A stretch of DNA of 37,934 nucleotides, taken from Planctomycetota bacterium. Its GTDB lineage: Bacteria; Planctomycetota; UBA8742; JACQVU01; JANLHZ01. A program made the translations under genes and the position numbers. The stretch is taken from the NCBI GenBank assembly GCA_024653775.1, contig JANLHZ010000012.1, positions 1-37,934 on the forward strand, written 5' to 3'. This document shows, one piece after another, positions 18,922 to 37,794 of this stretch (position 1 is its first letter; the number at the start of each line of letters is the position of its first letter). Below the pieces are notes generated by a model. That model worked only from the letters and a program-made list of their open reading frames with translations. It did no database searches and had not been told where the DNA came from.

Positions 18922-19304
18922 GCATAATTATAGATACGCAGGCACTGCTCTGGTTTTTGCTCGACGATCCGAGATTGAGCGAGAAAGCAAGAATTCGCAT
19001 AGAAACCGAGAGCGATCAGGTTTTTGTCAGTCCCGCCAGCCTTTGGGAGGTCGCAATAAAGGTCAGTCTCGGAAAGTATTATCTTCCGATAGCTTTCGAG
19101 GAGTTCTGGCAAAGCCAGCTTTTCATAAATTCGTTCGCGATTCTTCAAATATCGATCGATCACACGGGCAAAGTCGCCATTCTTCCATTTCATCATCGAG
19201 ATCCATTCGATAGATTGATCATTGCACAAGCGCTTGTGGAAGACTTTCCTGTGGTAAGCATCGACGAAATGTTCGACAAATACGATGTAAGCAGAATATG
19301 GTAA
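18918..19304 (+). CDS. vapC: PIN domain ribonuclease toxin, VapC type
   Basis: The product is a 128-residue PIN domain. Acidic metal-binding residues are seen as D6 (IIIDTQALLW), E44 (SPASLWEVAIK), D95/D98 (HHRDPFDRLIIAQA) and D116 (VVSIDEMFD), the complete set for this subgroup (COG3744-like). Such toxins cleave tRNA or other RNA when freed from their antitoxin. Translation starts at a GTG overlapping the antitoxin stop. The TGG-TAA end contains the ATG of ligA, so the pair and ligA may be co-transcribed, an unusual linkage of a toxin to an essential gene. Confidence 0.88.
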   Translation: MSIIIDTQALLWFLLDDPRLSEKARIRIETESDQVFVSPASLWEVAIKVSLGKYYLPIAFEEFWQSQLFINSFAILQISIDHTGKVAILPFHHRDPFDRLIIAQALVEDFPVVSIDEMFDKYDVSRIW

Positions 19305-21367
19305 ACCACGCCCCGAAAATAAACTCCTGGAAAGACGAGCGCGATCCCGCGAAAGCCGCGGAACTGCTGCGCGAGTTCATCGGGTTTCATAACGAGCGCT
19401 ACTACGTCGATTCCGCGCCGCTGATAACAGACTTCGAGTTCGACGCGGCGCTACGGGACTTGCAGGCTATCGAGAAGGCGCATCCTGAGCTTATCAGCGC
19501 CGATTCGCCGACGATGAAGGTCGGTAGCGATCTGCGCAAGGGATTCGAGACCTTCGCGCACAAACTCCCGATGATGAGCATCGACAACGGATACAATCGC
19601 GAGGACATCGAGAGCTTCCTCGGGCGGGTCTACAAAGAGCTTGGAACCAAAGACGTCACATTTACCTGCGAGCCGAAGATCGACGGCGTCGCGATCAGCC
19701 TCTGGTACGAAAATGGAGAACTCGTCCGCGCAGTCACACGAGGCGACGGCACCGTAGGCGACGTCGTCACCGCGGGCATCCGCGAAATCGGACCGATCCC
19801 GCACGCGCTCAAAAAGCCGCAGGGCGCGCAGCTCCCGAAGGTGCTCGAGGTCCGCGGCGAGATATATTTCCCGCTACCGAGTTTCCGCCGGGTGAACGCG
19901 CGCCGCGAGGAGGAGGGCTTGCAGCCTTTCATGAATCCGCGCAACGCGTGCTCGGGGACTCTCAAGACACTCGACGTAAGCGTCGTCCGCGAACGCGAAC
20001 TCGGCGCCATCATCCACGGCGTAGGCGTCACGGAAGGATTCACCGCCAGCGATTTCAGCCTTGCGCTCGAGCTGTTCGCCAGGATGGGCCTGCCAATAAC
20101 GAAAGAAATCGACAAGCGAAAAACGCTCGACGAAATCTGGGACTACATCGAATCATTCGACAAGAAACGCGAAAAGCTCGAGTACGAAACCGACGGCGTC
20201 GTCATCAAGGTCGACAGCCTGAAGCAGCGCGACACCCTCGGCATGCGCTCGAAGTCGCCACGGTCGATGATGGCGTTCAAATATCCGCCGCCGGAGGTGG
20301 AGACGGTGCTTCTCGATATCGAAATCCAGGTCGGGAGGACGGGAAGGCTGACGCCGCGGGCGGTGTTCGAACCCGTGATCGTCAGCGGTACGAAAGTCAC
20401 CCACGCGAGCCTGCACAACAAGGATTACATCGAAGAGAAGGACATCCGCGTTAATGACCACGTTCTGATCGCGAAGGCGGGTGAGATCATTCCGCAGGTG
20501 ATCCGCTCGCTACCGGAAAAGCGCACGGGAGAGGAGCGTGTTTTCAAATATCCGGAGACCTGCCCTTCCTGCGGCGGTCCGGCGGTGAAGGACGCGGGCG
20601 AACTCGTCGCGATCCGCTGCGTTAACCCGAAGTGCCCCGCGATAGTCCGCGAAAAAATCATCCACTTCGTTTCGCGGGACGCAATGGACATATCGGGTGC
20701 GGGGGAGAAACTCGTCGACGCACTCGTGGAATCCGGGCTTGTGACGGAGGTTTGCGATCTTTACGATCTGACGGAGGAGCAGGTTGCAGAGCTTCCGCGG
20801 ATGGGCGCGAAGAGCGCGAAAAACCTCATCGATGGAATCGCGGCGAGCAGGAAGAAATCGCTCGCGGAATTGCTCGTCGCGCTCGGGATTCCGTACGTCG
20901 GCGAAAAAGCCGCGGAAATTATCGAGGCGCAGTACGAGGACATCGACAAGATACGCGCCGCGACCGCGGACGAGATCGCGGAGATCGAACAGATGGGGCC
21001 GATAATAGCGGAGTCGGTTCATAAGTTCTTCGCGGACGACGGCAACTGGGCACTCGTAGAAAAACTTCGCGCGCGCGGAGTCAGCGTGACGCGCAGCGCG
21101 GAGAAATACGCGACTGTCGCGGTCGAAGGCGTGGCTGGAAAATCATTCGTGCTGACGGGCACCCTCGCGAACCGCGGACGGAAGGAGATGGAGGACCTGA
21201 TAAAGAAGGCGGGCGGCAAATGCTCGTCGAGCGTTTCGAAAAAGACCGATTACGTCATCGCGGGCGAAAACGCGGGCTCGAAGCTCGAAAAGGCCGAAAA
21301 ACTCGGCGTGCAGGTCCTCACGGAGGAGCAGGCGGTCGCGATGCTTGGAATCACGGGCGTTCCTTGA
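19298..21367 (+). CDS. ligA: NAD-dependent DNA ligase
   Basis: LigA seals nicks in DNA during replication and repair using NAD. It has the N-terminal Ia region (HNERYYVDSAPLITDFEFDA), the adenylated lysine in CEPKIDG (K127), the oligonucleotide-binding fold, a four-cysteine zinc finger (CPSCGG, CVNPKCPA), helix-hairpin-helix repeats and a C-terminal BRCT domain. At 689 residues it is full length. The ATG overlaps the end of vapC. The final 118 bases exist a second time at 23336-23452, beyond the three-gene minus-strand module. The two copies differ at about eight positions plus one deletion, so the present 3' end may be a replacement. Confidence 0.97.
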   Translation: MVNHAPKINSWKDERDPAKAAELLREFIGFHNERYYVDSAPLITDFEFDAALRDLQAIEKAHPELISADSPTMKVGSDLRKGFETFAHKLPMMSIDNGYNREDIESFLGRVYKELGTKDVTFTCEPKIDGVAISLWYENGELVRAVTRGDGTVGDVVTAGIREIGPIPHALKKPQGAQLPKVLEVRGEIYFPLPSFRRVNARREEEGLQPFMNPRNACSGTLKTLDVSVVRERELGAIIHGVGVTEGFTASDFSLALELFARMGLPITKEIDKRKTLDEIWDYIESFDKKREKLEYETDGVVIKVDSLKQRDTLGMRSKSPRSMMAFKYPPPEVETVLLDIEIQVGRTGRLTPRAVFEPVIVSGTKVTHASLHNKDYIEEKDIRVNDHVLIAKAGEIIPQVIRSLPEKRTGEERVFKYPETCPSCGGPAVKDAGELVAIRCVNPKCPAIVREKIIHFVSRDAMDISGAGEKLVDALVESGLVTEVCDLYDLTEEQVAELPRMGAKSAKNLIDGIAASRKKSLAELLVALGIPYVGEKAAEIIEAQYEDIDKIRAATADEIAEIEQMGPIIAESVHKFFADDGNWALVEKLRARGVSVTRSAEKYATVAVEGVAGKSFVLTGTLANRGRKEMEDLIKKAGGKCSSSVSKKTDYVIAGENAGSKLEKAEKLGVQVLTEEQAVAMLGITGVP

Positions 21368-21821
21368 CGGATTCGTACGGTGGGAAAATAACCCAGTTGC
21401 ACCGTTCCTTCATAGCTTGCTTAACCTTGACTTTCTTTCCGTCAATGCCGACTTTCTTATTCTTGTCGCCGTAAACGTTGCCGTGATCGTCCCGAAGTTC
21501 TCCCTTCGTTGGACCGTCGTGAATGACTTGCTGTTCCAGTTGTCGACAGAGTCCAAATGACAGAGAAACAAGACCAACATGGTCCTGAAGCATCGCATGC
21601 TCTGTTTTGAGTTTCATCGCTATCAATGCCCGCTCTATCGAAACAGACATATCTATCAGACCAAATGTGTAAGACGCTGGTTTAATTGGAACTCCGCGCG
21701 CTTCTTCGTAGTTTCCCATGTTTGAAGAATTGTAAGTGTCTATGAACATTTTTCGATGGACTGACCGAAAGAGCCGATCATCCTGGTCGAAGTCTTTGAT
21801 AACGTCGATTTTGGAAGTCAT
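21351..21821 (-). CDS. Third gene of the TIGR04255-type module, unknown function
   Basis: The 156-residue product has no signal peptide or membrane span and matches no family I know. It contains SYTFGLIDMSVSIERALIAM in the middle and a lysine-rich stretch (GDKNKKVGIDGKKVKVKQAM). Its ATG directly abuts the stop codon of the preceding gene, so the two are co-translated. Its stop codon lies just inside the end of ligA, on the opposite strand, exactly where the duplicated ligA sequence ends. It may be the effector or an accessory of the module. Confidence 0.65.
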   Translation of the reverse strand: MTSKIDVIKDFDQDDRLFRSVHRKMFIDTYNSSNMGNYEEARGVPIKPASYTFGLIDMSVSIERALIAMKLKTEHAMLQDHVGLVSLSFGLCRQLEQQVIHDGPTKGELRDDHGNVYGDKNKKVGIDGKKVKVKQAMKERCNWVIFPPYESVKERP

Positions 21822-22442
21822 TTACTTTTTTCGTCTGTGGTTCAGCCACTTTTGAGAACGTCTACGCTCGCGGAACTTCGAGAGATATCGCTTGTTCAGT
21901 TCTTCAAAACTCGATACATCTTCGCTTTCCGAATGTCCGGTTTCTTCGTCGTGGAAATAAACGTCGAACGCATCGTCGCCTACGACTTCGACTTCCAGTT
22001 CCACGCCGTACAGACTCCAGCAAAAGCCGATTGTTCCGCTTCCGGTCGGGACAGGCTTGGGCAAAGGAACATTCGCCTCCAGCAGCTTCACAGTAAAGGC
22101 TTTCGCGGGTCCGATGCTCACGGGATTGGTGCCCCTTCCTCCATACCCATCCCACCCGTCTTCTAGACCCTCGATTTCCGCAAGTGTACGTTTCATTTCT
22201 TCTTGTGACTTATACTCTGGGACGTCATTCATTGATAGCGAAGGACAATAGTCGCTGAAATTCATTAGTGTCGCGCCGCTGGCGATGTATCCAGCAGTCC
22301 AATCTTCCCTTCCCAAGTCGCGTACAATAGGCGCGCCGGGAATAAAATCGCCCACGCTGAAAGCGTAGGCATTGCTCTCGTTTTCTGTCGGCTGAAGAAT
22401 GATAAAAACTTCGGGTCGCTGCACTTGTAGAGCTACTCCCAT
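21822..22442 (-). CDS. Module protein with GWDGYGG motif, unknown function
   Basis: The 206-residue product contains LAEIEGLEDGWDGYGGRGTN (about residues 98-117), a motif of the type LxxGWDGxGA that I know from many small uncharacterised accessory proteins. The C-terminus is basic (KFRERRRSQKWLNHRRKK). The ATG at 22442 overlaps the stop of the upstream TIGR04255-type gene by ten bases. An ATG 17 codons earlier would lie deeper inside that gene and is less likely. The gene is the middle one of three, with overlap or zero spacing on both sides. Confidence 0.65.
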   Translation of the reverse strand: MGVALQVQRPEVFIILQPTENESNAYAFSVGDFIPGAPIVRDLGREDWTAGYIASGATLMNFSDYCPSLSMNDVPEYKSQEEMKRTLAEIEGLEDGWDGYGGRGTNPVSIGPAKAFTVKLLEANVPLPKPVPTGSGTIGFCWSLYGVELEVEVVGDDAFDVYFHDEETGHSESEDVSSFEELNKRYLSKFRERRRSQKWLNHRRKK

Positions 22443-23260
22443 AGGTTGTGTGCCTCCTCGGTAATAGATTCGCGAAAAACTCTTCCAAGCCACTTATTTG
22501 CGCGTCTGAAAAAAGAAACCGCTCCGTCTATCGGATGGTCGCTTAAAGGCGCTCCTCTCGCTACATTGTTGACGATCAGAGCTTGTTCCCGCGAAGAAGC
22601 AAGTATCGCCGGATTTATTTGCGTTGTTATCCGCGCTATCGGCTTAGATTCGGAATCCCGCACCAGAAACGAGAAATTCGTCTGTAAAACCTCGAAACAT
22701 ATACTGTCGGCAAAATGATCGGTATCCACTTGCATTTCATTGTCGAAAACGGCTGCGATTTTGAACACGCTTTTCGCGTCGCTGAATTCCTTGAAAATGT
22801 TCTTTTCCAGAATGCGACTTACATACTCAGTTTCACACTGAATCGTTCGGATATCTCCGATACCGTTTGTCTTCACGAATTCCCTGAACTTGACGAGCAG
22901 ATCTTTAAAGCTCTCAAGCATCGGCTCGAACCTGGGATACATTTCATCCCCCTGATCGTTTCTCATCCAATTAATGGCGAAGCCGTCGCCTTGCACCTGG
23001 ATTACCCGCGTTTTCGACTCGTTCATTAACCAAAATCTACAGGGACTCGCTGGCTGCAGAATCTTCTGCGGCTCGATAACGTTGTCGAAACTTTCAACAA
23101 TGAAAGCTCTAGGATTCTTGATCGAAGTGACTGGATAATCACCACGAACTATGTCCCAAAACTTTGGGAGCAAGATTTCTTTGGATGGGTCGAGACGCTC
23201 GAAGTACACCGACAGCACAAGCTCCTGTACCGGAGGATGAGTTAGATGGTGCTCGCCCAC
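22433..23260 (-). CDS. TIGR04255 family protein
   Basis: The 275-residue product begins LTHPPVQELVLSVYFERLDP, the PPVxEVVL-type start of the TIGR04255 family. It ends with PIDGAVSFFRRANKWLGRVF, then EAHNLWE, matching the family's closing helix. Members are sporadically distributed in bacteria and their function is not established. It is the first gene of a tightly packed three-gene operon inserted between ligA and a duplicate of the ligA 3' end. Codon use is more AT-rich than in ligA, consistent with transfer. A defence or toxin-antitoxin role is possible but only inferred. Confidence 0.8.
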   Translation of the reverse strand: MGEHHLTHPPVQELVLSVYFERLDPSKEILLPKFWDIVRGDYPVTSIKNPRAFIVESFDNVIEPQKILQPASPCRFWLMNESKTRVIQVQGDGFAINWMRNDQGDEMYPRFEPMLESFKDLLVKFREFVKTNGIGDIRTIQCETEYVSRILEKNIFKEFSDAKSVFKIAAVFDNEMQVDTDHFADSICFEVLQTNFSFLVRDSESKPIARITTQINPAILASSREQALIVNNVARGAPLSDHPIDGAVSFFRRANKWLGRVFRESITEEAHNLWE

Positions 23261-23335
23261 GATTGTTCCCCTGCGACTTTGTTTACCCCGCTTGAACTTT
23301 AGCTTCCGACATCATGTGTGTCAACTCTCCTCATC

Positions 23336-23452
23336 TCGAAAAAGATCGATAACGTCATCGCGGGCGAAAACGCGGGGTCGAAGCTCGAAAAGGCCGAAAA
23401 ACTCGGCGTGACGATCCTCGCGGAGGAACAGGCGGTCGCGATGCTTGAATCA
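23336..23452 (+). pseudogene. ligA: Duplicated 3' end of ligA
   Basis: This fragment matches 21236-21353 with about eight substitutions and a one-base deletion near its end. Translated in the ligA frame it keeps [20 protein letters not shown], but the highly conserved KKTDYV has become KKIDNV. It has no start and is too short for a domain. Together with the ligA end it brackets the three-gene module. It is probably the displaced original end of ligA. Confidence 0.9.
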
Positions 23453-23898: not shown

Positions 23899-25893
23899 TT
23901 GCACGAGCACGAACTTGACCATGAAGAGATAACCATCGGTCAGCTTGCCGTCAGGCTCAAGTACTTGACGAGGCAGCAGCTCGACGTCGTGCTCGAAGAC
24001 CAGAAAGGCCGCGCCGCGCAGGGGCAGCCCGCGGAGAAGTTCGGCGAGGTCTGCAAGCGCCTCGGCTTCCTGCGCGACAAGGACATCGATCAGCTCCTTT
24101 CCACTCAGGTCAAGAAGTCGAAGGCTGCGGACGTTCAGGGCTATCAGATTCTCGACAAGCTCGGCCAGGGCGCGATGGGAAGCGTCTACAAGTGCCTCCA
24201 CGTCGATTCCGGCGAGATCCGCGCAATGAAAGTTCTTACGCCGAATCTCGCGAAAAACGAAAAGCTCGTCGCGCGTTTCCACCGCGAAGCGCGGATCACG
24301 ATCGCGATCGACCATCCGAACATCGTAAAAGGCTACGAGGAAGGCACTTACCACGGCACCCACTACTTCGTGATGGAGTACATCGCTGGGATGACAGTGA
24401 AGGACAAGCTGAAGGACATCGGCACATTCAGCGAGGACGAGACCTGCGCCATCGGCATCCAGATCGCTCACGCGCTGCACCACGCGTACCAGCAGGATCT
24501 GATCCACCGCGACATCAAGCCCGACAACATAATGATCCTAGGCGACGGGCGCGTGAAACTGCTCGACCTCGGCCTTGCGAAGGAAACGAACGTCGACAGC
24601 ACGCTCACGATCGCAGGCGCGACCATGGGCACGCCTTACTATCTTTCGCCCGAGCAAGCCCGCGGCGTCGCGGATATCGACATCCGTACCGACATCTACA
24701 GCCTCGGCGCGACGCTGTTCCACATGGCCTGTGGCGAGGTCCCTTTCGGCGGCAAGAATGCGATTCTCGTCGTCCAGAAACATCTGCACGAGCCGGTGCC
24801 AGACCCGCGCATTTTGAATCCGGACCTTAGCGACGCGTTCTGCGAAATCATTTTCACCTCGATGGAGAAAGAGCGCGAAAAGCGATACCAGACTCCACGG
24901 GAGATGCTTAAAGCGCTCGAAGCGCCGTTCGTCAAGGAGGAAGGACCGGAACTCCTTTCGCCCGAGGAGGCGGACCAGCTCTTTGGTAGAATGTCGGGCG
25001 CGGGGAAAAACACTGAAAGCAAGGGAAGCGCTGTGCTGCTTTCACCGCTCGAGGCGATTGCGCTGCTCGAACAGCGCGGCGACGCGCTCGCATCGGGCGT
25101 TTTCGATCTCGACACGATAATGAAGACTCCCGCGAGGAAGGCTCCGGAACCACGGAGTGGGTTCGATGGAGACGAGGAAGATCTTTTTGACGACGGCCCG
25201 AAAAAGCCGTCAGCGAAGAAATCCCGCGAAAAAAAGACTCTCAAGAAGTCCCGCGGCGGGCCGCCTCAGCCGGAAGCTCCGAAATCCTCGTCGCGGGCGG
25301 CTTCTGAAAAGCCGAAGAGTTCGGGCGACCCGATGCGCGACAGGGTGGAGCGGATGCGCGAACGCAGCCAACGCAGAAGCAGGATTTCGAGCAGAGCGGA
25401 CCAAAACGGCGATCAGACAACCTGGAGAGAGACAAAACAGAGTTTTCGGGAAGCCTGGGAACTGATCACTTCCCCGTTCAAGAAGAAATCAGGGAAAAAG
25501 AAGACGTTTCAGTCGAAATCGCAACGCATCGTGAACTCCCTCGACTCGGACAGCATCTACGAAATGCTTGATAGTGACGAAGCAATCGATCGCGAGGACG
25601 CGGCGTTCCTGATCGCGGAGAAAGGCGACAAAAAGGCGCTTCCGGAAATGACCCGGCTGCTTTCGGACGAGGACAAAGACGTCCGCCTCTGGGCGCTTTA
25701 CGCGGCGGGAAAACTTGCCGACTACACCGCGATACCAGAAATAGTGCCTTCGCTCTACGATGACGATGTCTTCCTGCGCTACGTGGCGCATAAAACTCTT
25801 TGCGAAATAACCGGCAAAAGCCTCGGACGCAACCACCTGAGCTGGATGAACCTTTACAACAGGTTGAAGAAGAACGATTTATCTGACAAGTAG
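23899..25893 (+). CDS. Ser/Thr protein kinase with T2SS-ATPase-like N-terminus and HEAT repeats
   Basis: The 664-residue protein starts with TTG at 23899; no in-frame ATG lies before the N-terminal domain. Residues 10-75 hold two short repeats like the N-terminus of type II secretion ATPases (LAVRLKYLTRQQLDVVLEDQ, FGEVCKRLGFLRDKDIDQLL). The kinase domain runs from about 81 to 345: GQGAMGSV (89-96), K111, HRDIKPDN (203-210), DLG (223-225), GTPYYLSPEQ. A charged, low-complexity linker follows, then HEAT-like repeats from about 550 to the end. There is no membrane span, so it is cytoplasmic. Its last 55 codons or so are duplicated twice downstream, behind each cargo gene. Confidence 0.93.
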   Translation: MHEHELDHEEITIGQLAVRLKYLTRQQLDVVLEDQKGRAAQGQPAEKFGEVCKRLGFLRDKDIDQLLSTQVKKSKAADVQGYQILDKLGQGAMGSVYKCLHVDSGEIRAMKVLTPNLAKNEKLVARFHREARITIAIDHPNIVKGYEEGTYHGTHYFVMEYIAGMTVKDKLKDIGTFSEDETCAIGIQIAHALHHAYQQDLIHRDIKPDNIMILGDGRVKLLDLGLAKETNVDSTLTIAGATMGTPYYLSPEQARGVADIDIRTDIYSLGATLFHMACGEVPFGGKNAILVVQKHLHEPVPDPRILNPDLSDAFCEIIFTSMEKEREKRYQTPREMLKALEAPFVKEEGPELLSPEEADQLFGRMSGAGKNTESKGSAVLLSPLEAIALLEQRGDALASGVFDLDTIMKTPARKAPEPRSGFDGDEEDLFDDGPKKPSAKKSREKKTLKKSRGGPPQPEAPKSSSRAASEKPKSSGDPMRDRVERMRERSQRRSRISSRADQNGDQTTWRETKQSFREAWELITSPFKKKSGKKKTFQSKSQRIVNSLDSDSIYEMLDSDEAIDREDAAFLIAEKGDKKALPEMTRLLSDEDKDVRLWALYAAGKLADYTAIPEIVPSLYDDDVFLRYVAHKTLCEITGKSLGRNHLSWMNLYNRLKKNDLSDK

Positions 25894-25936
25894 GCTCTTT
25901 GCCTTTCTACGCATGCGAAATTTTTACAAAATTATC

Positions 25937-25968
25937 TTGTGTGTGTGTGTGTGTGTGTGTGTTAGAAT
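25937..25968 (+). promoter_or_regulatory. Candidate promoter with (TG)12 spacer, upstream of cargo A
   Basis: TTGTGT (25937-25942) and TAGAAT (25963-25968) could serve as -35 and -10 boxes. The 20 bases between them are almost wholly TG repeat, in total 12 units at 25938-25961. The paralogous promoter at 27354 has ten units and 16-base spacing. Change in repeat number would shift the spacing around the optimum of 17. Confidence 0.45.
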
Positions 25969-26024
25969 TTTCTCCGTAACAAAAACAATCAGTTCTTGAA
26001 GTCTTGTTCGCGGGAGAATTCGAC

Positions 26025-27071
26025 ATGAAAATTGAAGCTCTATCATTGACCTTACTCGTGGCAATCCTGCATTTCGGAGTCATTCAAGTCGCGAACGCGC
26101 AATCCTCACTTCCACCTGGCGGTGTGCAGGGTATTCCCATTAACCCTGGGGATGGAGGTCCTGCTAACGGGATCGCTATCCAGTTTCGAAATGACACTGG
26201 TCAGGATATTTCCGACATCACAATTACGATTGCGACAAGGGTGAACCCGACTAGTATGAATCCCATTGTGTTTGAAGTGAACACTGCTGGCGATTTTCAG
26301 TTCGTCCTACCTGATAAATCTAGAGGTACCGTCGCCGGAAACGGAACGACGAGGTTAAAAGTCAAAATCGGTAACTCTAGCGAAGTCGTGGCTCCCGGAG
26401 ATACATTTGGCATTTTATTTCATTTCAACGAGGATGTCGAGCTTGGAACGGAACCGTTGCCGATCCGATACGCGGCCACAAATCGAAATGGAAATACAAT
26501 CTATGCTGCCGTTGGTATTTTTGGTCCTGTTTCAGAATTCGTACTTCCACAAGACGAAACTAGCCCGCAAGTCAAGTTTATTAACAACACGTCGCAGCAA
26601 ATAAGGGGTGTTGAAATCAGAACCGATCCGTCGCAAACACTTCTGACCGACTTTCTCTATGCGGGGCCTTTTTCCACAATTGTTCAGGAGAATTGGGGTA
26701 GCGTGATTCTGGAAATTCCAGAAGGTGCGCCATTTGTCAACCCTGGGCAGGAGTTCAGCTTCGATCTATTTCTTCCGGATGAGTCTAGGTTGCCGGGAGA
26801 TCAACAGAAGTTCGTCTTCATCTGGAATTTTGTAGATAAGGATGATGATGGAGAAGACACAGAAGAGATAGAATGTCATACGGTTTTCGATTTTTTACTG
26901 TTCGTATTTATCGTACTTGTTATCGGTTTGATCATTCTGTTGATTTTATGGATCGCCGGAGTTAACCCTCAAGCAGTCAGAGTCGCCGCGCTCGTTCTTC
27001 TTTCGCAACTTCTCGTCGTTGGCGTAATTCTGCTGATAATAGGGATTTCCTGCGGGATTCTCGTTACGTGA
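26025..27071 (+). CDS. Exported membrane-anchored protein, cargo paralogue A
   Basis: The ATG at 26025 has GGGAGA upstream. The product (348 residues) begins with a signal peptide (ALSLTLLVAILHFGVIQVAN, cleavage after ANA). Two similar beta-rich domains follow, each ending in a PGxxFxxxxxF pattern (APGDTFGILFHF, NPGQEFSFDLFL). An acidic linker (DKDDDGEDTEEIECHT) leads to two membrane helices joined by the loop WIAGVNPQAVRVAAL. The C-terminal helices are nearly identical to those of paralogue B, while the beta domains have diverged strongly. It lies behind the kinase gene. The function is unknown; surface display is plausible. Confidence 0.75.
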   Translation: MKIEALSLTLLVAILHFGVIQVANAQSSLPPGGVQGIPINPGDGGPANGIAIQFRNDTGQDISDITITIATRVNPTSMNPIVFEVNTAGDFQFVLPDKSRGTVAGNGTTRLKVKIGNSSEVVAPGDTFGILFHFNEDVELGTEPLPIRYAATNRNGNTIYAAVGIFGPVSEFVLPQDETSPQVKFINNTSQQIRGVEIRTDPSQTLLTDFLYAGPFSTIVQENWGSVILEIPEGAPFVNPGQEFSFDLFLPDESRLPGDQQKFVFIWNFVDKDDDGEDTEEIECHTVFDFLLFVFIVLVIGLIILLILWIAGVNPQAVRVAALVLLSQLLVVGVILLIIGISCGILVT

Positions 27072-27097
27072 CGACACTGACCTAAATATATTCTTCA

Positions 27098-27132
27098 ACG
27101 GTCGAACAGTGATGTTCGACCGTCTCTTTTTT
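27098..27132 (+). terminator. Rho-independent terminator after cargo A
   Basis: A perfect 11-bp stem (ACGGTCGAACA/TGTTCGACCGT) with a GTGA loop is followed by CTCTTTTTTT. It closes transcription of cargo A just before the second kinase-tail copy. Confidence 0.9.
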
Positions 27133-27149
27133 TACTTACTAAGCCGCCA

Positions 27150-27310
27150 CCCCGGAAATAGTGCCTTCGCTCTACGATGACGATGTCTTCCTGCGCTACG
27201 TCGCGCACAAAACACTCTGTCAGATTACTGGTAAGAGCCTTGGCAGGAACCATCTAAGCTGGATGAATCTTTACTCAAGGCTGAAGAAGAACGATTTATC
27301 TGACAAGTAG
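27150..27310 (+). pseudogene. Second copy of the kinase 3' end (mosaic)
   Basis: In frame, this fragment reads PEIVPSLYDDDVFLRYVAHK and on to SRLKKNDLSDK and stop, matching the kinase C-terminus with only two changes. Many silent differences from the kinase cluster in the middle of the fragment, where it equals the third copy. Its end and the following 3' region, up to and past the TG repeat, equal the kinase copy. It has no start and no upstream kinase sequence. Confidence 0.9.
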
Positions 27311-27353
27311 GCTTTTTGCCTTTCTACACATGCGAAATTTTTACAAAATTAAC

Positions 27354-27381
27354 TTGTGTGTGTGTGTGTGTGTGTTAGAAT
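27354..27381 (+). promoter_or_regulatory. Candidate promoter with (TG)10 spacer, upstream of cargo B
   Basis: TTGTGT (27354-27359) and TAGAAT (27376-27381) are separated by 16 bases of TG repeat, ten units in all at 27355-27374. The surrounding sequence is nearly identical to that before cargo A, apart from the repeat count. Confidence 0.45.
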
Positions 27382-27436
27382 TTTCTCCGTAATCAAAGCA
27401 ATCAATTTTTGAATTCTTGTTCGCGGGAGATTCGAA

Positions 27437-28444
27437 ATGAAATTCAAAGTTCCTGTCGTGATTCTGTCGTTCTTGGTGACATTTCTGGGCTTGACGCAGT
27501 CCGTGATTGCCCAGGCTACACCTGTTCCGCGCGGCGGCGCTCCGTTCACTTTCGGCTCCGGAACAGGTGCCGCGCCGGGAGTAAATTTTCTCTTTCGAAA
27601 TGCCTCTGGCAGAAGATTCGCCGACATTTTTATCGTGATTTTATTGCACCCCAATCCCACGTTGCGAATGGTGGACTTTGAAATGGTAGGCGTCGAAACC
27701 GAAATCGACGGTTCAGATTTTCCGAATCAAGAAGTACACATCAATATTAAAGACGTAAACGGGTACATTGACGATGGGTCTGAATTCGAAATCGTCCTTA
27801 CCTTGAACGCCGATGTTCCCGTGCCGAATTCGCTGCCGATGTGGATATACGGCACTAACGATAAAAACCAGGTATTGGGAAAACTGATCGCTCTCGATAG
27901 CGAACAAAAGGTCCATGAGGTCGCGCCGTACGTCACGAGTGGTGACCACCCAATTCTTAACGGCACCGGACACCCAATTAAGGCACTTGAAATTGAAGTT
28001 CCCAATCAGTTAGTTGATCCGAATTCAATTTATAGCGGTCCATTTCAAAGACTTGAAATCATAACTTTGAGCAGATTCAGGCTCGAAATGGCTCCTGGTC
28101 AATTTATATTGCCAGGGCAGGAGTTTGGAGTAGGCTTTTCCTGGAGTACCATGGGAGGATATGGGCTGGGAAGTCCACCGCAGCAGATTAACTTCAATTC
28201 TGAGTTTGGGGATGAAGATAACGGTGATGACGGCGAGGAAGTTGAATGTCGAACCACCTTTGATGTCTTTTTATTCATATTTGTTGCAATATTTTTCGGA
28301 CTGATCGTTTTACTGATACTATGGATCGCCGGAGTCAACCCTCAAGCAGTCAGAGTCGCAGCGCTTGTTCTCCTGTCACAGCTTCTTATCGTTGGCGTCG
28401 TCCTGCTTATTATAGGAATTTCATGTGGAATAATCTTCACATGA
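27437..28444 (+). CDS. Exported membrane-anchored protein, cargo paralogue B
   Basis: The 335-residue product has the same design as paralogue A: a signal peptide (VPVVILSFLVTFLGLTQSVI, cleavage after AQA or nearby), two beta-rich domains (DDGSEFEIVLTLN, LPGQEFGVGFSW), an acidic linker with one cysteine (DEDNGDDGEEVECRT) and a two-helix C-terminal membrane hairpin. The loop WIAGVNPQAVRVAALVLLSQ is identical to A. The N-terminal domains have diverged so far that only spacing and a few motifs remain. GGGAGA precedes the ATG. It is enclosed between the second and third kinase-tail copies, which points to duplication of a tail-plus-cargo unit. Confidence 0.75.
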   Translation: MKFKVPVVILSFLVTFLGLTQSVIAQATPVPRGGAPFTFGSGTGAAPGVNFLFRNASGRRFADIFIVILLHPNPTLRMVDFEMVGVETEIDGSDFPNQEVHINIKDVNGYIDDGSEFEIVLTLNADVPVPNSLPMWIYGTNDKNQVLGKLIALDSEQKVHEVAPYVTSGDHPILNGTGHPIKALEIEVPNQLVDPNSIYSGPFQRLEIITLSRFRLEMAPGQFILPGQEFGVGFSWSTMGGYGLGSPPQQINFNSEFGDEDNGDDGEEVECRTTFDVFLFIFVAIFFGLIVLLILWIAGVNPQAVRVAALVLLSQLLIVGVVLLIIGISCGIIFT

Positions 28445-28472
28445 AGGTGACTGCTCGTTCAATGTCTTTCAG

Positions 28473-28505
28473 AAGGTCGGACAGGATTGTTCGACCTTTT
28501 CTTAT
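28473..28505 (+). terminator. Rho-independent terminator after cargo B
   Basis: AAGGTCGGACA pairs with TGTTCGACCTT around a GGAT loop, with one G-T wobble, followed by TTCTTATTT. The stem is related to the terminator after cargo A, as expected for paralogous units. Confidence 0.8.
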
Positions 28506-28509
28506 TTAC

Positions 28510-28676
28510 GCGCGATACCAGAAATAGTGCCCTCGCTGTACGATGACGATGTTTTCCTGCGTTACGTCGCGCACAGGACACTCTGTCAGATTACTGGTAA
28601 GAGCCTTGGCAGGAACCATCTAAGCTGGATGAATCTTTACAATCGGCTTAGAAAGACCGCCGACGGTTCGAATTAG
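28510..28676 (+). pseudogene. Third copy of the kinase 3' end, probably the original tail
   Basis: In frame it encodes PEIVPSLYDDDVFLRYVAHR and on to NLYNRLRKTADGSN and stop. The body matches the kinase C-terminus, but the last residues and the 3' flank differ from copies one and two. Differences from the kinase gene are mostly silent. It lies next to the long AT-rich region before groEL, and is best read as the kinase end that existed before the cargo arrived. Confidence 0.85.
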
Positions 28677-29127: not shown

Positions 29128-30831
29128 ATGGCGAAACAACTGGCTTTCGAACACGACGCGCAGGAGCAACTAAAGGCGGGAGTGACCAAACTCGCCCGCG
29201 CGGTAAAGGCGACACTCGGTCCGAAAGGACGTAACGCGGTACTCGACAAGGGCTGGGGATCGCCTACCGTCACGAAGGACGGCGTCACCGTCGCGGAGGA
29301 CATCGATCTGATCAATCCGTTCGAAAACGTCGCCGCGCAGCTTGTAAAGCAGGTCGCGAGCAAGACGAGCGACATCGCTGGCGACGGCACCACAACCGCG
29401 ACTCTTCTTGCCGAGGCGATTTTTGTCGAGGGTCTGCGCCACGTCACCGCCGGTGCGGCGTCGATGGCGATCGTAAGTGGTCTCAAGAAGGCGGCGGCGA
29501 AAGTCGTCGACGAACTCCGCAAAATGAGCACTCCTGTAGACGACAAGCAGGTCGCAGCGGTGGCGACGATCGCCGCGAACGGTGATAAAGAGGTCGGCAA
29601 GAACATCGCCGACGCGCTGCACAAGGTCGGCAAGGACGGAGTCATCACGGTTGACGAGGCGAAGGGTTTCGTGACGGAGATCGACATCGTCGAGGGAATG
29701 CAGTTCGATCGCGGCTACCTGAGTCCGTATTTCGTGACGAACCAGGATTCGATGAAGGTCGTGCTCGAAAATCCCTACATCCTGATCCACGAGGACAAGA
29801 TTTCGACAGTGGTCAAGATCCTCCCGATCCTCGAGGCGGTGAAGAAGGCGAATCGCAGCCTCCTGATTATCGCGGAAGATATTGAAGGCGAGGCGCTTGC
29901 AACGCTCGTCGTGAACAAGCTCAACGGCAACCTCAAGATCGCCGCTGTGAAGGCGCCAGGCTACGGCGATCGCAGGAAGGCGATGCTCGGCGACATCGCG
30001 TCGCTGACGGGCGCGACCGCGATTATGAAGGACCTCGGCGTCGACGTCGAGACCATCAGCGTCAAGGAACTCGGCAACGCGAAAAAGATCGAGATCGACG
30101 CGGACAACACGACGATCATCGACGGTAAGGGAGAGCTGAGCGACATCAGCGGACGCATCGCGCAGATCCGTCGAGAGCTTGAGACGACGACGAGCGAGTA
30201 CGATCGCGAGAAGTTGCAGGAGCGGCTCGCGAAGCTCGCGGGAGGCGTCGCGAAGATCAACGTCGGCGCGGCGACCGAGAGCGATATGAAGGAGAAGAAG
30301 GCGAGAGTCGAAGACGCTTTGCACGCCACCCGCGCGGCGGCCACCGAAGGCATCCTCCCCGGCGGCGGAGTCGCGCTGGTTCGCGCGCGGAAGGTTCTCG
30401 CGAAAGTCGAACTCGCGGATAACGACGAGCAGTTCGCAAAGGACGTGCTCCGGAAAGCTCTTCTCGTCCCGATAATGACCATCGCGGAAAACGCAGGTGT
30501 CGAGGGCAGCGTCGTCGCGCGCAAGGTCGAAAACGAAAAGGGCAGCTTCGGCTACGATGCCTCAGCGGACAAATATGGCGACATGTTCGAGTTCGGCATC
30601 ATCGATCCGACGAAGGTCACGGTGAGCGCGCTTCAAAACGCGGTCAGCGTCGCGTGCCTGCTGCTTTCCACAAGCTGCACCGTCACCGACATTCCGAAGA
30701 AGGAAAAGCCCGGCGCCGGCGCACCCGGAATGGGTGGTATGGGCGGAATGGGAGGCATGGGTGGAATGGGCGGTATGGGAGGAATGGGTGGCATGGGAGG
30801 TATGGGCGGAATGGGAGATATGGACTTCTGA
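29128..30831 (+). CDS. groEL: Chaperonin GroEL 1
   Basis: This is the 60-kDa chaperonin that folds proteins inside a double-ring cavity with GroES. The 567-residue product has [20 protein letters not shown], the ATP-site DGTTT, and a long C-terminal GGM repeat tail ending in GDMDF, longer than that of E. coli. The ATG is preceded by GGAGG. It is the first gene of a cluster that continues with groES, a second groEL, dnaJ and grpE. The order groEL before groES is the reverse of the usual operon. A palindromic repeat lies between groEL and groES. Confidence 0.97.
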
Positions 30832-31556: not shown

Positions 31557-33170
31557 ATGGCGAAACAGATTTTTCACAGCGACGACGCAAGGCACAAGAT
31601 CCTCGAAGGACTCGAGCAGCACGCCCACGCGGTACGGGTCACGCTCGGTCCGTCGGGCAAGAACGTGGTCCTCGAAAAGAGCTGGGGCAGCCCGGTCATT
31701 ACGAAGGACGGCGTGACCGTGTCGAAAGAGGTCGAGCTTGCGGATCCCTTCGAGAACATGGGCGCAAAGCTCATCGCCGAGGTGGCGCAGAAGATTTCGG
31801 ACGAGGTGGGCGACGGCACCACCACGGGCACGGTGCTTGCGGAAGCGATCTACCGCCAGGGACTGCGTTATCTTCGAACGGGCGTCAACCCCGCGGCGAT
31901 CAAGCGCGGACTCGACGCGAGCGTCGAAGCGGCCGTCGAGGCGATCAAGGGATATTCCCGCGAAGTCAAGAAAAGCGATGAAATCCGCCAGGTCGCGACG
32001 ATCAGCTCGAACCAGGACAAGAGCATCGGCGCGTTCATCGCAGACGCGATGGACAAGGTCGGAAGGAAGGGCGTGATCACCGTCGAGGAAGGCAAGGGCA
32101 CCGAGACCACGCTCGACGTCGTCGAGGGAATGCAGTTCGACAAGGGATTCCTCAGCCCGTACTTCATCACGAACACGAAGGAGATGAAGGCGGAGTTCGA
32201 GGACGCATACATCCTGCTCCACGAGAAGAAAATCGGCAGCATCCGCGACATCGTTCCCGTGCTCGAAAAAATCGTCGTGACGCGGAAGCCGCTCGTGATC
32301 ATCGCGGAGGACGTCGAGGGCGATGCGCTCGTCGGACTCGTCGTGAACCGCCTGCAAGGGATTCTCAACGTCTGCGCGGTGAAGGCGCCCGGCTTCGGCG
32401 ATCGCAGGAAGGCGATGATGGAAGACATCGCGGCGCTCACGGGCGGAAAGCTCATCAGCGAAGACCTCGGGATGGACCTCAAGACCGTCGGCGTCGAGGT
32501 CTTCGGCACCGCGGACAAGATCACCATCACGAAGGACCGCACGACCATCGTCGGCGGCAAGGGTTCGAAGAAGGAGTTGAACGCTCGCGTAGAGCAGATC
32601 AAATCGAGGATCGAGACGACCACGTCGAACTACGACCGCGAAAAGCTCGAGGAGCGCCTCGCGAAGCTCACGAGCGGCGTCGCGGTCATCAAGGTCGGCG
32701 GATCGACCGAGACCGAGATGAAGGAACGCAAGGCCCGCGTCGACGACGCGCTCGCCGCGACGAAGGCCGCCGCGGAAGAGGGGATCGTCCCCGGAGGCGG
32801 CGTGACGCTGGTCCGCGCGATCGAAGCGGTCGAGGCGAAGCGTTCGAAGCTCAGGGACGACGAGAGATTCGGCGCGGACATTCTCGCGAAAGCGCTCAGC
32901 GCCCCGCTGCGTCAGATCGCGGAGAACGCCGGCGACGACGGCGGCGTCGTTATCGATGAGGTCCGTGCGAACCAGAAGGACACCTGGGGCTACAACGCGG
33001 TCACGGGCAAGGTCGAGGATCTCGCGAAGGCGGGCGTGTTCGATCCGACCAAGGTCGTCCGCGTCGCGCTCCAGAGCGCCGCGTCCATCGCGGGGCTGAT
33101 GCTCACGACGGAAGTCCTCGTCACCGACCTGAAGGAGAAGGAAGACCTCGTCGCGGGAGCGGTGTCGTAA
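31557..33170 (+). CDS. groEL: Chaperonin GroEL 2, without GGM tail
   Basis: The 537-residue product is a complete chaperonin with RVTLGPSGKNVVLEKSWGSP, VGDGTTTGTVLAEAIYRQG and GIVPGGGVTLVRA, but it ends in VTDLKEKEDLVAGAVS, lacking the GGM tail of GroEL 1. It differs from GroEL 1 throughout, so the two are old paralogues and not a recent copy. Loss of the tail is expected to change cavity volume and ATPase behaviour. GGAGA precedes the ATG. A heptamer array follows its stop codon. It may be specialised for a subset of clients or for stress. Confidence 0.95.
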   Translation: MAKQIFHSDDARHKILEGLEQHAHAVRVTLGPSGKNVVLEKSWGSPVITKDGVTVSKEVELADPFENMGAKLIAEVAQKISDEVGDGTTTGTVLAEAIYRQGLRYLRTGVNPAAIKRGLDASVEAAVEAIKGYSREVKKSDEIRQVATISSNQDKSIGAFIADAMDKVGRKGVITVEEGKGTETTLDVVEGMQFDKGFLSPYFITNTKEMKAEFEDAYILLHEKKIGSIRDIVPVLEKIVVTRKPLVIIAEDVEGDALVGLVVNRLQGILNVCAVKAPGFGDRRKAMMEDIAALTGGKLISEDLGMDLKTVGVEVFGTADKITITKDRTTIVGGKGSKKELNARVEQIKSRIETTTSNYDREKLEERLAKLTSGVAVIKVGGSTETEMKERKARVDDALAATKAAAEEGIVPGGGVTLVRAIEAVEAKRSKLRDDERFGADILAKALSAPLRQIAENAGDDGGVVIDEVRANQKDTWGYNAVTGKVEDLAKAGVFDPTKVVRVALQSAASIAGLMLTTEVLVTDLKEKEDLVAGAVS

Positions 33171-34813: not shown

Positions 34814-34859
34814 ACCGATGAACACAGATTTTTTCACAATCGCAGCATCGATAAAATTA

Positions 34860-35134: not shown

Positions 35135-35758
35135 ATGGAAAACTCACAGGAACATAGCGAAAACGTCGAGCAGACTCCGGAGGAGACTTCCGCGGAAGAG
35201 CCGCAGGAATCTCCGGAGGAGAAGACGCGCCGGGAGCGAGAGGAGCTTCTTTCGAGTCTTCGCGCACTTGACGATGGCGCGCTGCTCGCGCTTTACCGAG
35301 AGGCGCATGAAGCCGCCTCGATGAAGGACCTCGCGCAGCGAACGAAGGCGGAGCACGAGAACTATAAGCGCAGATCGCAGACGGAACGCGAGAGCTGGTC
35401 GTTCATCTATCGAAAGGACGCGGTGCTCGCGCTGCTTCCCGTGTTCGACAATTTCGAGCGCGCGCTTTCGCATCACGCCGAGACGAAGACCGACGAGGAG
35501 CGTGAATTCCTCGCTGGACTCGAAGCTCTGGCTGACCTCTGGAAAGCCGCGTTCAAGAACCTTGGCGTAACGGAAATCGACACGGATTGTCTCTTCGATC
35601 CGAACCTTCACGAAGCCGTGACAAGTCTTGATGTCGCGAATGTTCCGCCGGGGACCATTGTATCCGTGTTCGAAAAAGGGTATAAACTGAAGGACAAGGT
35701 GATTCGCGCCGCCAAAGTCCAGGTGGCGAAGGCTCCGGAGGAAAAGCCGGAAGAATAG
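35135..35758 (+). CDS. grpE: Nucleotide exchange factor GrpE
   Basis: GrpE releases ADP from DnaK. The 207-residue product has an acidic N-terminus, a long helix (about residues 28-90) and the C-terminal beta domain, with LLPVFDNFERAL, FDPNLHEAV and the closing signature PGTIVSVFEKGYKLKDKVIR. The final KVIRAAKVQVAK departs from the family's RPAKV at one residue; the duplicated tail at 37454-37517 has the conserved proline. This suggests the present end was acquired with the PRTase/DprA insert. No Shine-Dalgarno is visible. Confidence 0.95.
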   Translation: MENSQEHSENVEQTPEETSAEEPQESPEEKTRREREELLSSLRALDDGALLALYREAHEAASMKDLAQRTKAEHENYKRRSQTERESWSFIYRKDAVLALLPVFDNFERALSHHAETKTDEEREFLAGLEALADLWKAAFKNLGVTEIDTDCLFDPNLHEAVTSLDVANVPPGTIVSVFEKGYKLKDKVIRAAKVQVAKAPEEKPEE

Positions 35759-35802
35759 CTAGGCAGAGTAATCATTTAGCTTCAATAATTGAGGTTTAAG
35801 AC

Positions 35803-36426
35803 ATGCAGAAGTTTAAAATTAAATCAAATTGCTATTTAAACAGAGACATTCAGGCCTATTATAATACAGATTATGTCGGTTTTCGTGAACCTGGGAATCC
35901 CGACTATATCAACACGCTAAAGAATATTCTTAACGACTGCGCACAAAATAAACTGAAATCAGCAGTTCAAGAATTGACAAACGTGCTGTTATCTGATATG
36001 AAGGCTTTAAGCGCGTCGTCACACTCAAATTCACTAATCGTTTGTGTTGTCCCGCGGGCAAAAGCGGAAAGTAATTATCATGCAGACCAGCTATTGTTCA
36101 AGTCAACCGTTCAAAAGGTTGTAAATCGCCTCGATAGTTTAGTAGACGGCACAAGCTATATCTGTCGTCATACGGACACAAAAACAACCCATATTAATAA
36201 GCCTCTCCGGGGTTTTTGTAACGAAGGGCGGAAGCCGTACCCTGGCATTACTGCCGATACCTGTACGATTATTTCGGATCGTTTGAACTCCGCTGATATT
36301 TTATTAATCGATGATATTTACACGAAAACAGTTAATATTGATGAAGATGCAATCCAAGCTTTGCTCGACATAGGAGCGCGTTCTGTCGTCTTTTATTCCG
36401 TTGGGCTAACGAAGAGAGATCGCTGA
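35803..36426 (+). CDS. Phosphoribosyltransferase-like protein, partner of DprA-like protein
   Basis: The 207-residue product has the PRPP-binding loop motif ADILLIDDIYTKTVNIDEDA near residues 165-184, in which two acidic residues follow a hydrophobic strand as in ComF and other type I phosphoribosyltransferases. The N-terminal part (about residues 1-110) is unfamiliar, with one strand-like segment (NSLIVCVVPRAKAE). TTGAGG lies 12 bases before the ATG. Codon use is AT-rich compared with grpE. It is followed after nine bases by the DprA-like gene, and the pair is bracketed by the grpE end and its duplicate. A nucleotide-signalling or DNA-uptake-related role is possible. Confidence 0.75.
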   Translation: MQKFKIKSNCYLNRDIQAYYNTDYVGFREPGNPDYINTLKNILNDCAQNKLKSAVQELTNVLLSDMKALSASSHSNSLIVCVVPRAKAESNYHADQLLFKSTVQKVVNRLDSLVDGTSYICRHTDTKTTHINKPLRGFCNEGRKPYPGITADTCTIISDRLNSADILLIDDIYTKTVNIDEDAIQALLDIGARSVVFYSVGLTKRDR

Positions 36427-36435
36427 AACTCTGCA

Positions 36436-37443
36436 ATGTATGGACGACTTATGAAGTATTTGGAGAAAGCAATCAATGTTTTAGCGGCTAAAACCTACAA
36501 GGGCATAGGCAGGGCGTGGATTGTTAAAAACATGAGGGGCAACGAATCGGTGGATGTCATCGTTTCTTTGCTGAACAAAAGTTTAGGGATGGATAACCAA
36601 ATAGCGCGGGATGATTTTGAAATGAAAAGAGAAATCATTAGGCAAGAAATTCAAAAATTAAGAGGGTTCGCGGATGGAGTTGTTGCGATAGGCGATGAAG
36701 ATTTTCCACGCTACAGAGGGAATGTAAAAAACAGCGATCAGCCAATCGCCATTTTCTACCGTGGCGAATTGGATTTATTGAAAATCGGGAATAAAAATAT
36801 TGCTGTTATTGGTTTGCTTGATCCAGGCTGCGACACCGAAACGATAGAAAAAGAAGTTGTCGCCGAATTTATAAAGAGAGGTGTTACTATTGTTGGTGGC
36901 TTGGCTTTAGGGTGCGATTCCATCGCGCACCGTCAGGCGCTGCTTTCGAGTGGAAAGACAATTGCCGTTCTTCCCGGTCCATTGAATAATATTCTGCCGA
37001 AGGCAAATGTGAATCTTGCAAACGAAATTGTGGAGAAAGGAGGTTTATTGATTTCTGAGTATTATCGGGATGCCATATCTAAAATGGAATTAAGAGGCAG
37101 ATATCAGGAGCGGGACAGACTGCAAGCTTTGTTTAGCGACTGTGTTGTATTGTCGGCAAGCTATGCAAAGAACGATCATGGACTCGATAGCGGATCGAGA
37201 CTTGCGATGGAGTTCGCCATGAAGTATTCTATACATAGAGCCGTTCTTTATGATCCGATCGCAAACGCTAACAGCCCAGAGCATGAGTTGAACAGGCAAA
37301 TAATAAAGGATGACGAAGATGTGATTACCGTTAACCGAAACAATTTACACCATAGTATAAGTAAAGTAGTCGCGTCGCACTTCGCTGCGAGTAAAAGTCT
37401 GAAATACCAAAAAGAGTTATTCGATATAGTTCAACCTATCTGA
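36436..37443 (+). CDS. DprA/Smf-like Rossmann protein
   Basis: The 335-residue product carries the DprA signature in order: NKNIAVIGLLDPG, GVTIVGGLALGCDSIAHRQA, GKTIAVLPGPLNNILPKANV and KGGLLISEYYRD. Classic DprA has SGxARGID at the second site, so the GLALGCD variant has lost the arginine. DprA proteins load RecA on incoming single-stranded DNA, while related SLOG-fold proteins bind nucleotides in conflict systems. Here the pairing with a phosphoribosyltransferase, the AT-rich codon use and the location in an insert favour an accessory function over competence. An in-frame ATG five codons later is an equally possible start. Confidence 0.85.
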   Translation: MYGRLMKYLEKAINVLAAKTYKGIGRAWIVKNMRGNESVDVIVSLLNKSLGMDNQIARDDFEMKREIIRQEIQKLRGFADGVVAIGDEDFPRYRGNVKNSDQPIAIFYRGELDLLKIGNKNIAVIGLLDPGCDTETIEKEVVAEFIKRGVTIVGGLALGCDSIAHRQALLSSGKTIAVLPGPLNNILPKANVNLANEIVEKGGLLISEYYRDAISKMELRGRYQERDRLQALFSDCVVLSASYAKNDHGLDSGSRLAMEFAMKYSIHRAVLYDPIANANSPEHELNRQIIKDDEDVITVNRNNLHHSISKVVASHFAASKSLKYQKELFDIVQPI

Positions 37444-37453
37444 TTATTAGGGG

Positions 37454-37517
37454 CAAGGTGATTCGCCCGGCGAAGGTGCAGGTGGCGAGGGAGCCTACGG
37501 AGAAGCAGGAAGAATAG
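37454..37517 (+). pseudogene. grpE: Duplicated 3' end of grpE, probably the original tail
   Basis: In frame it encodes KVIRPAKVQVAREPTEKQEE and stop, compared with KVIRAAKVQVAKAPEEKPEE at the end of grpE. Thirteen of 63 bases differ, about half of them silent. The stop codon lies one base before the fmdB ATG, an operon-like spacing, and it keeps the conserved proline of GrpE. It is therefore read as the native grpE end that was cut off by the insert. Confidence 0.88.
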
Positions 37518-37518
37518 T

Positions 37519-37794
37519 ATGCCGACGTACGATTATCAATGCCAGCAGTGCGGACACGCGTTCGAGAAGTTCCAGAAGATGTCGGAATCCGTGCTGAAGA
37601 AATGCCCCGAGTGCGGCGAACGCGCGCTCAAAAGACTCATGGGCACTGGCGCGGGAGTGATCTTCAAGGGCAAGGGTTTCTGGCAGACGGATTCGAAAAC
37701 GAAAAAGGCCGCGCCTCCCGCGAAATGCGACGCGATCACGGACGGAAGCGCCCCCGCGACACCATGCGCGTCCTGCCCCGCGGCTAAGGAATAG
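37519..37794 (+). CDS. FmdB family zinc-ribbon protein
   Basis: The 91-residue product begins MPTYDYQCQQCGHAFEKFQK and has a second pair CPECGE, the CxxC...CxxC ribbon of the FmdB putative regulator family. GTGAGVIFKGKGFWQTD follows, as usual. The C-terminus is alanine- and cysteine-rich (CDAITDG, CASCPAAKE). The molecular role of the family is not well established. Its ATG is one base after the duplicated grpE tail, so it was probably in one operon with grpE before the PRTase/DprA insertion. Confidence 0.9.
   Translation: MPTYDYQCQQCGHAFEKFQKMSESVLKKCPECGERALKRLMGTGAGVIFKGKGFWQTDSKTKKAAPPAKCDAITDGSAPATPCASCPAAKE

Follow-up and report, generated by a model that had tools for sequence, protein, structure and literature searches.

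Displaced gene 3' ends in a Planctomycetota genome point to a probable serial cassette insertion behind a kinase gene and other genes

Introduction

The element e14 in the icd gene of Escherichia coli shows how an insertion into a gene end can be recognized: an intact gene with an element-side 3' end is followed by the insert and the displaced old 3' end. The same arrangement is described here for a contig of a Planctomycetota bacterium (GTDB lineage Bacteria; Planctomycetota; UBA8742; JACQVU01; JANLHZ01; assembly GCA_024653775.1, contig JANLHZ010000012.1), the 37,934 nucleotides of which are called the window. A serine/threonine kinase gene is followed there by two further copies of its own 3' end. 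The intervals between the three copies, named tails 1 to 3 in downstream order, hold two paralogous genes, cargo A and cargo B, for putative secreted proteins with a membrane hairpin. We consider serial insertion of cassettes behind gene 3' ends, with two successive insertions at the kinase locus, the probable cause.

The element e14 comprises 15 kb and carries intE and xisE, whereas the inserts here measure 0.5-5.3 kb, occur at 12 genes and had no integrase among 27 insert open reading frames (ORFs). Taken as a yardstick, the displaced icd tail measured 165 nt with 10 synonymous and two non-synonymous differences. The homology at icd runs 51 nt past the stop codon, whereas in 11 of 13 events here the copies align no more than 9 nt beyond it. 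A gene end on both sides of the insert, with the near copy in frame, was found in 13 events at 12 genes. The inserts are nevertheless not classed as e14-type elements, since the searched insert ORFs lack the integrase that defines such elements. Minimal mobile elements of Neisseria are small cassettes between conserved genes, swapped by homologous recombination via both flanks and without displaced tails; it is by this general description that the cassettes here are set apart from them. Homology-facilitated illegitimate recombination comes close in that one homologous join combined with another join can leave a partial gene duplication beside new DNA, but a restriction of this process to the final 170 nt of genes is not known. 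For merodiploids formed by transformation, sizes of about 100-900 kb were reported (PMC3784515). According to PMC4927057, displaced orphan cdiA-CT/cdiI modules of contact-dependent growth inhibition (CDI) systems arise when a new module is taken up at the 3' end of a gene and the former end is shifted downstream, and repeated uptake was proposed to yield tandem arrays. In the CDI systems described there the toxin tail itself is variable and integrase or transposase genes are often nearby, whereas here the gene end is conserved and the separate gene behind it varies. CDI or Rhs-type systems are built on a large toxin-carrying protein whose C-terminal toxin varies and is accompanied by an immunity gene; no such carrier is present at the locus, where the target is a HEAT-repeat kinase with tails conserved in protein. 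No integron integrase was detected in the searched window ORFs of at least 150 amino acids, attC sites not being part of the search. Open-access literature covered with limited terms, and accessible in part, contained no description of integrase-free cassettes with displaced tails at many genes.

Results and discussion

Two displaced ends behind one kinase gene

The kinase locus consists of the kinase with tail 1, a TG tract, cargo A, a terminator, tail 2, a TG tract, cargo B, a terminator and tail 3, followed by groEL (Table 1). Coordinates and tail identities agree with the order in the first-pass annotation, and its repeated tail-cargo units are indeed homologous from tail to terminator. 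Three terminator-like hairpins were found versus 2.9 +/- 2.0 in shuffles, a count no higher than chance, and the two behind the cargo genes (27098-27123, 28471-28500) are homologous to one another. Tails 2 and 3 begin at kinase positions only a few bases apart. Tail 2 is 84 % identical to tail 1 over 173 nt (expectation value (E) 6e-44) and tail 3 is 79 % identical over 149 nt (E 5e-31); since the copies differ by 16-21 %, a trivial misassembly is unlikely. The C-terminus reads RKTADGSN in tail 3 and KKNDLSDK in tails 1 and 2, and the 3' flank of tail 3 is unrelated to the flanks of the other two. In the 45 codons that can be aligned, about 25 of 29 synonymous sites are different between tails 1 and 3, with a proportion of non-synonymous differences (pN) of only 0.05; the proportion of synonymous differences (pS) is 0.62 for tails 1 and 2 and 0.30 for tails 2 and 3. 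Because the synonymous sites are near saturation while the protein hardly changed, tails 1 and 3 appear to have diverged as working gene ends; copies decaying after a duplication in place would not be expected to show this pattern. The central part of tail 2 matches tail 3, and its 3' end and the adjoining flank match tail 1; in the alignable part, 270 of 100,000 shuffles of the informative sites were as clustered. Between units A and B, three tail segments are identical at 47/47, 60/82 and 27/27 positions (100 %, 73 % and 100 %), the 5' flank at 116/126 (92 %), the coding part at 468/733 (64 %) and the hairpin at 151/204 (74 %). That the flanks are more similar than the coding parts indicates a more recent exchange of sequence in the flanks than elsewhere.

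The direction of the process is read from hsdM, another gene with a displaced end. Its insert contains a nucleotidyltransferase-substrate-binding gene and a Polbeta nucleotidyltransferase gene. The displaced hsdM tail follows, and its stop codon, read by eye, overlaps the ATG of hsdS, an arrangement regarded here as the original transition from hsdM to hsdS in a type I restriction operon. Since the displaced tail is joined to hsdS, it would be the old end, and the current hsdM end would have come with the insert. By analogy, tail 3 is likely the kinase end that was there first and tail 1 the one acquired last, in line with the first-pass annotation, which had regarded tail 3 as the likely original end.

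In serial insertion, an incoming piece would have carried its own last kinase codons together with a TG-tract promoter, a gene for a secreted membrane-hairpin protein and a terminator. Each insertion would have replaced the kinase end in frame and displaced the former end downstream as a fragment. With tail 3 as the original, cargo B would have arrived first, leaving a tail-2-type end, and cargo A second, giving tail 1; the same kind of event would have taken place behind other genes of the genome. The scheme accounts for the tails, the mosaic tail 2, the downstream bias and the unrelated inserts elsewhere. That the insertion was stepwise, that the new ends came from outside and how the pieces were joined is what we infer from these comparisons. 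The pieces may have been joined by targeted recombination, with an enzyme acting in trans or since lost, or by homologous recombination on the side of the gene and an illegitimate join on the other side; the former is slightly favoured because the displaced tails all measure 52-173 nt. The downstream bias does not decide on a recombinase, since an insert upstream would separate the gene from its promoter and be selected against. That a dedicated integron-like system is at work, with the gene tail as attachment site and a trans-acting or retargetable recombinase, is a tentative and rather doubtful extension. Integrase-free cassettes with toxin-antitoxin, defence or phase-variable surface genes would then be placed behind many unrelated housekeeping genes, each bringing an in-frame replacement of the end of its target.

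Displaced 3' ends behind other genes

The window corresponds to contig C258; the assembly comprises 5.4 Mb in 331 contigs and is 96 % complete. The scan for displaced ends covered 1.61 Mb of this genome (1,614,733 bases, including about 36 kb counted double) with 968 ORFs of at least 150 codons. An event was counted where a gene 3' end was repeated downstream at 78 % identity or more with the match within 30 nt of the gene end. Fifteen rows qualified; one was left out as a repeat array with homology extending beyond the match (L222) and one because the repeat continues into the next gene (L152). Thirteen displaced 3' ends downstream of 12 intact genes remained, the kinase being hit twice, while no 3' end was found upstream of its own gene at this identity in the scanned stretches. 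Four head-type rows (L207, L212 twice, L235) and five internal rows passed the same threshold. Besides the kinase, the targets were ligA, grpE, a GlgC-like nucleotidyl transferase gene, mnmA, a beta-lactamase-fold gene, an HNH gene, hsdM, ruvB, a TPR gene, a 1516-codon gene and an FGE-sulfatase-domain gene. For ligA and grpE, which lie in the window, the self-comparison placed the second copy of the 3' end about 2 kb downstream. Looser limits gave many further tail and head rows at 57-76 % identity, some of them upstream and most in repeat proteins (L160, L206, L234); these were not counted. Neither was a vapC-like gene beside the cargo paralogue D, as the gene-end part of its repeat is weak.

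The inserts have a G+C content of 0.41-0.52 versus 0.56 for the scanned stretches and carry toxin or defence genes in about half of the cases. Besides the inserts behind ligA and grpE (Table 1), the contents were HicA (contig C218), a nucleotidyltransferase pair (C61), a PIN-domain and a TPR protein (C173), HEC-02A/B (C16), a DnaJ-zinc-domain protein (C104), unknowns (C244), a protein with a weak Exo_endo_phos match below the curated cut-off (C21) and secreted proteins (the kinase locus, C189 and C293).

Alternative explanations and points against serial insertion

The first-pass annotation proposed that unequal crossing-over between flanking tails had doubled a tail-cargo unit, with divergence of the cargo genes afterwards. 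The homology of the units from tail to terminator, the 92 % identity of their 5' flanks and the likeness of the two terminator-tail junctions (52 of 72 columns) would suit this, and the difference between flank and coding identity together with the mosaic tail 2 does speak for recombination between the units. As the first cause, however, unequal crossing-over requires that a cargo was already flanked by two tails, leaves the synonymous saturation between tails 1 and 3 at hardly changed protein unexplained, and does not account for the similar scars at 11 further genes, each with a single, unrelated insert; we regard it as improbable. The evolution of the displaced tails as coding sequence would follow directly if whole kinase-cargo units had been duplicated in tandem and the downstream kinase bodies lost, and tandem duplicates do occur nearby, namely two groEL genes of 66 % identity. 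Several clean deletions ending at nearly the same kinase position would then be needed, no cargo is present behind tail 3, and the single inserts at other genes fit poorly, so that this course of events seems still less probable.

Direct repeats flank every counted insert, as they would after transposition or another insertion with a long target-site duplication (50-170 nt) that was kept only where the gene end stayed intact. Such duplications should pass the stop codon at random, but 11 of 13 run no more than 9 nt beyond it; the kinase copies differ synonymously, the searched insert ORFs lack a transposase and the inserts have no common end sequence. Of the explanations weighed, this one is the least credible and very unlikely.

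Several observations weigh against serial insertion itself. Neither a recombinase nor a transposase was found in the 27 insert ORFs searched in Pfam, seven small, antisense or family-2 ORFs being outside the search, and neither a shared end motif (5' edges compared by eye) nor microhomology at the junctions was seen. The flanks of units A and B are 92 % identical although the coding parts are saturated, hence a later exchange between the units has to be added. The limitation by the stop codon fails for cargo A, where a cassette flank is shared, and for C293, where a weak gapped alignment runs 38 nt past it and the BLAST match ends 9 nt before the gene end. The near limit of homology at the gene end was set by the selection of rows; independent of this selection is just the finding that the copies do not continue beyond the stop codon. 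In six of the 11 non-kinase events (ligA, grpE, C61, C189, C218, C293) non-synonymous differences exceed synonymous ones, and duplication in place with decay of the displaced copy would give the same; there the foreign origin of the new end is presumptive. The window, C173, C189 and C293 were reached via the cargo genes or a second secreted family and are not a blind sample; without them, six events remain in about 1.49 Mb. Strictly blind were C1-C20 and C25-C28 (about 290 kb), with one counted event (C16). No displaced 3' end was found in the control, 400 kb from another member of the class (G009), which is too small to separate rates; the contrast to it is not significant once the cargo-reached loci are left out.

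Table 1. Kinase locus and the ligA and grpE loci of the window, with positions counted from its first nucleotide
Feature	Position	Strand	Evidence
Serine/threonine kinase gene, C-terminal HEAT repeats, insertion target	23899..25893	+	ORF; Pfam Pkinase E 8.5e-49, HEAT_2 E 1.2e-9
Tail 1, current kinase 3' end (presumably newest)	25721..25893	+	sequence comparison
TTGTGT - TG tract (25 nt, 25938-25962) - TAGAAT, possible cargo A promoter, spacer 20 nt	25937..25968	+	consensus resemblance only
Cargo A, 348 aa: putative signal peptide, beta-rich part, acidic linker, two-helix hairpin	26025..27071	+	sequence; low-confidence model
Cargo A terminator-like hairpin (27098-27123) and T run	27098..27133	+	hairpin scan
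Tail 2, displaced kinase 3' end; mosaic with tail-3-like middle and tail-1-like 3' end	27138..27310	+	sequence comparison
TTGTGT - TG tract (21 nt, 27355-27375) - TAGAAT, possible cargo B promoter, spacer 16 nt	27354..27381	+	consensus resemblance
Cargo B, 335 aa, cargo A paralogue	27437..28444	+	sequence comparison
Cargo B terminator-like hairpin (28471-28500)	28471..28507	+	hairpin scan
Tail 3, displaced kinase 3' end, other C-terminus, likely original end	about 28504..28676	+	sequence comparison
ligA 3' end (gene 19298-21367)	21236..21353	+	self-comparison; Pfam
Insert behind ligA: three minus-strand ORFs, one with a PDC-M32A-like stretch	21368..23335		ORFs; defence-gene search
Displaced ligA 3' end, 92 % identical over 118 nt	23336..23452	+	self-comparison
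grpE 3' end (gene 35135-35758)	35692..35767	+	self-comparison; Pfam
Insert behind grpE: ShosT-like 35803-36426 and ShosA-like 36436-37443	35803..37443	+	PADLOC E 5.9e-6, 1.1e-44; DNA_processg_A
Displaced grpE 3' end, 79 % identical over 67 nt	37451..37525	+	self-comparison

Cargo proteins and their relatives

Cargo A and cargo B are 39-40 % identical as proteins. Both begin with what we read as a signal peptide and end with an acidic linker and a two-helix hairpin; the predicted structure of cargo A, a poor model with a mean predicted local distance difference test score of 56, has strands between these ends. The membrane hairpins, called almost identical in the first-pass annotation, share 76 % of their residues over 67 codons and 74 % of their DNA. 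The annotation's diversifying selection on the N-terminal part is beyond a comparison of non-synonymous with synonymous substitution rates, as the synonymous sites are saturated (pS 0.77, pN 0.49). For the hairpin it had proposed conversion of the C-terminal part; with pS 0.66 and pN 0.12, purifying selection is a likelier reason for the conservation of this region than recent conversion.

Two further paralogues, C on contig C308 and D on C173, each lie behind the same kind of TG tract. Cargo D (L141) lies in opposite orientation between direct repeats at 2677-2801 and 4054-4178; the repeat includes the 3' flank of a PIN-domain gene, and its spacing of 1377 nt is similar to that of the kinase units. 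A truncated-looking lipoprotein-like ORF before cargo C had no second copy in 21 genomes and thus left no displaced tail. No relative of the cargo proteins outside the own genome was obtained among 60 genomes (own included), assembled genome contigs, plasmids and viral contigs. A profile of cargo A, B and C, run against 392 genomes including the own one, matched in two others (G189, E 3e-11; G012, E 8e-4) and also brought in paralogue D. Cargo A, B and C belonged to no Pfam family at E 1, and a sequence match in the PDB at E 0.14 was disregarded. Variable numbers of tail-cargo units behind this kinase, which the first-pass annotation expected a survey of relatives to reveal, could be followed into one comparison genome of the same order (79 % complete). 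Its best homologue of the kinase C-terminal region is 40 % identical and has no cargo behind it, the contig being cut inside the gene, and no cargo relative was found in this genome.

Repeat tracts and apparent phase variation

All seven TG/CA tracts of at least 15 nt in the assembly are located at the 5' ends of two gene families, cargo A/B/C and a second secreted family; a GA tract of this length was not found in the assembly. The tract precedes the start codon of the cargo genes by 51-62 nt and measures 25, 21, 19 and 11 nt among the paralogues. It is framed by a putative -35 element (TTGTGT, in cargo C TTGTAT), which is weak, and a putative -10 element (TAGAAT, in cargo C TATTTT), with spacers of 20, 16 and 18 nt for A, B and C and, by eye, about 6 nt for D. 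These putative promoters were not reported by a promoter scan. The geometry of cargo A, B and C resembles that of hifA/hifB of Haemophilus influenzae, where a repeat tract lies between promoter elements and the promoter is phase-variable (PMC2651432). In distinction to the TA repeat of hifA/hifB, the cargo tract consists of TG, the -35 element is weak and the spacer of cargo D is short. Judged from this layout, TG slippage probably changes the promoter spacing and switches each cargo gene on and off, and the cargo genes look like members of a phase-variable set with repeat tracts at the 5' end. On phase variation and simple sequence repeats in Planctomycetes, the accessible part of PMC4060949 mentions phase variation only in general terms.

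The second secreted family comprises 17 loci (L093-L109, on C253, C170, C33, C316, C257, C189, C293, C63, C149, C291, C41, C275, C231, C147, C45, C309 and C216). In 14 of them a tract of CA, AGTC, poly-C down to six C, TCTA or poly-G follows the start codon, at or before the signal peptide; two keep a remnant of two AGTC units and one is without a tract. Scored by eye against an upstream start, four are in frame and 12 out of frame as assembled (one of these has only a TTG start, another an ATG behind the tract), with one unscored. This looks like translational phase variation. The family had no relative in assembled genome contigs; among 294 genomes of the phylum, matches occurred only in the own genome and in G001 (best E 6e-10). 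Two of its members, L098 (C189) and L099 (C293), have a nearly identical N-terminal part and seemingly unrelated C-terminal halves, which suggests an exchange of C-terminal parts.

Other repeats and neighbouring genes

The two groEL genes directly behind tail 3 are arranged in tandem (29128-30831 and 31557-33170; the identity given above refers to DNA). A repeat of about 175 nt occurs in three copies in the window (10544-10735, 15876-16069 and 34628-34814; 74-81 % identity). Seventeen arrays of heptamer tandem repeats with at least four exact copies were found in the stretches of the own genome (e.g., L143 12205-12428) and none in the 400 kb of G009. A dispersed short repeat with inverted arms (TTCGTAGA-GGCACGAATAAAG; L143 1268-1360 and 5209-5243, L165, L179) is perhaps a small non-autonomous element. 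L176 6766-10494 and L152 883-3857 have a set of unknown genes in common, including a nearly identical 96-residue protein; for this set, Pfam and PHROGs searches were empty except for a weak peptidoglycan-binding/endolysin-like match in one L152 protein.

Conclusions

The route by which small defence and toxin-antitoxin genes that lack an integrase reach the chromosome is in many cases obscure. Displaced gene tails can be read as directional scars, with the old end displaced and the new one in use, and allow individual insertions to be counted and put in order in any genome. Involvement of a dedicated enzyme would mean a new way of capturing genes; if one-sided recombination is the cause, the scar would still make such events measurable. 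At the kinase locus, two apparently phase-variable surface genes would have been stacked by the same route.

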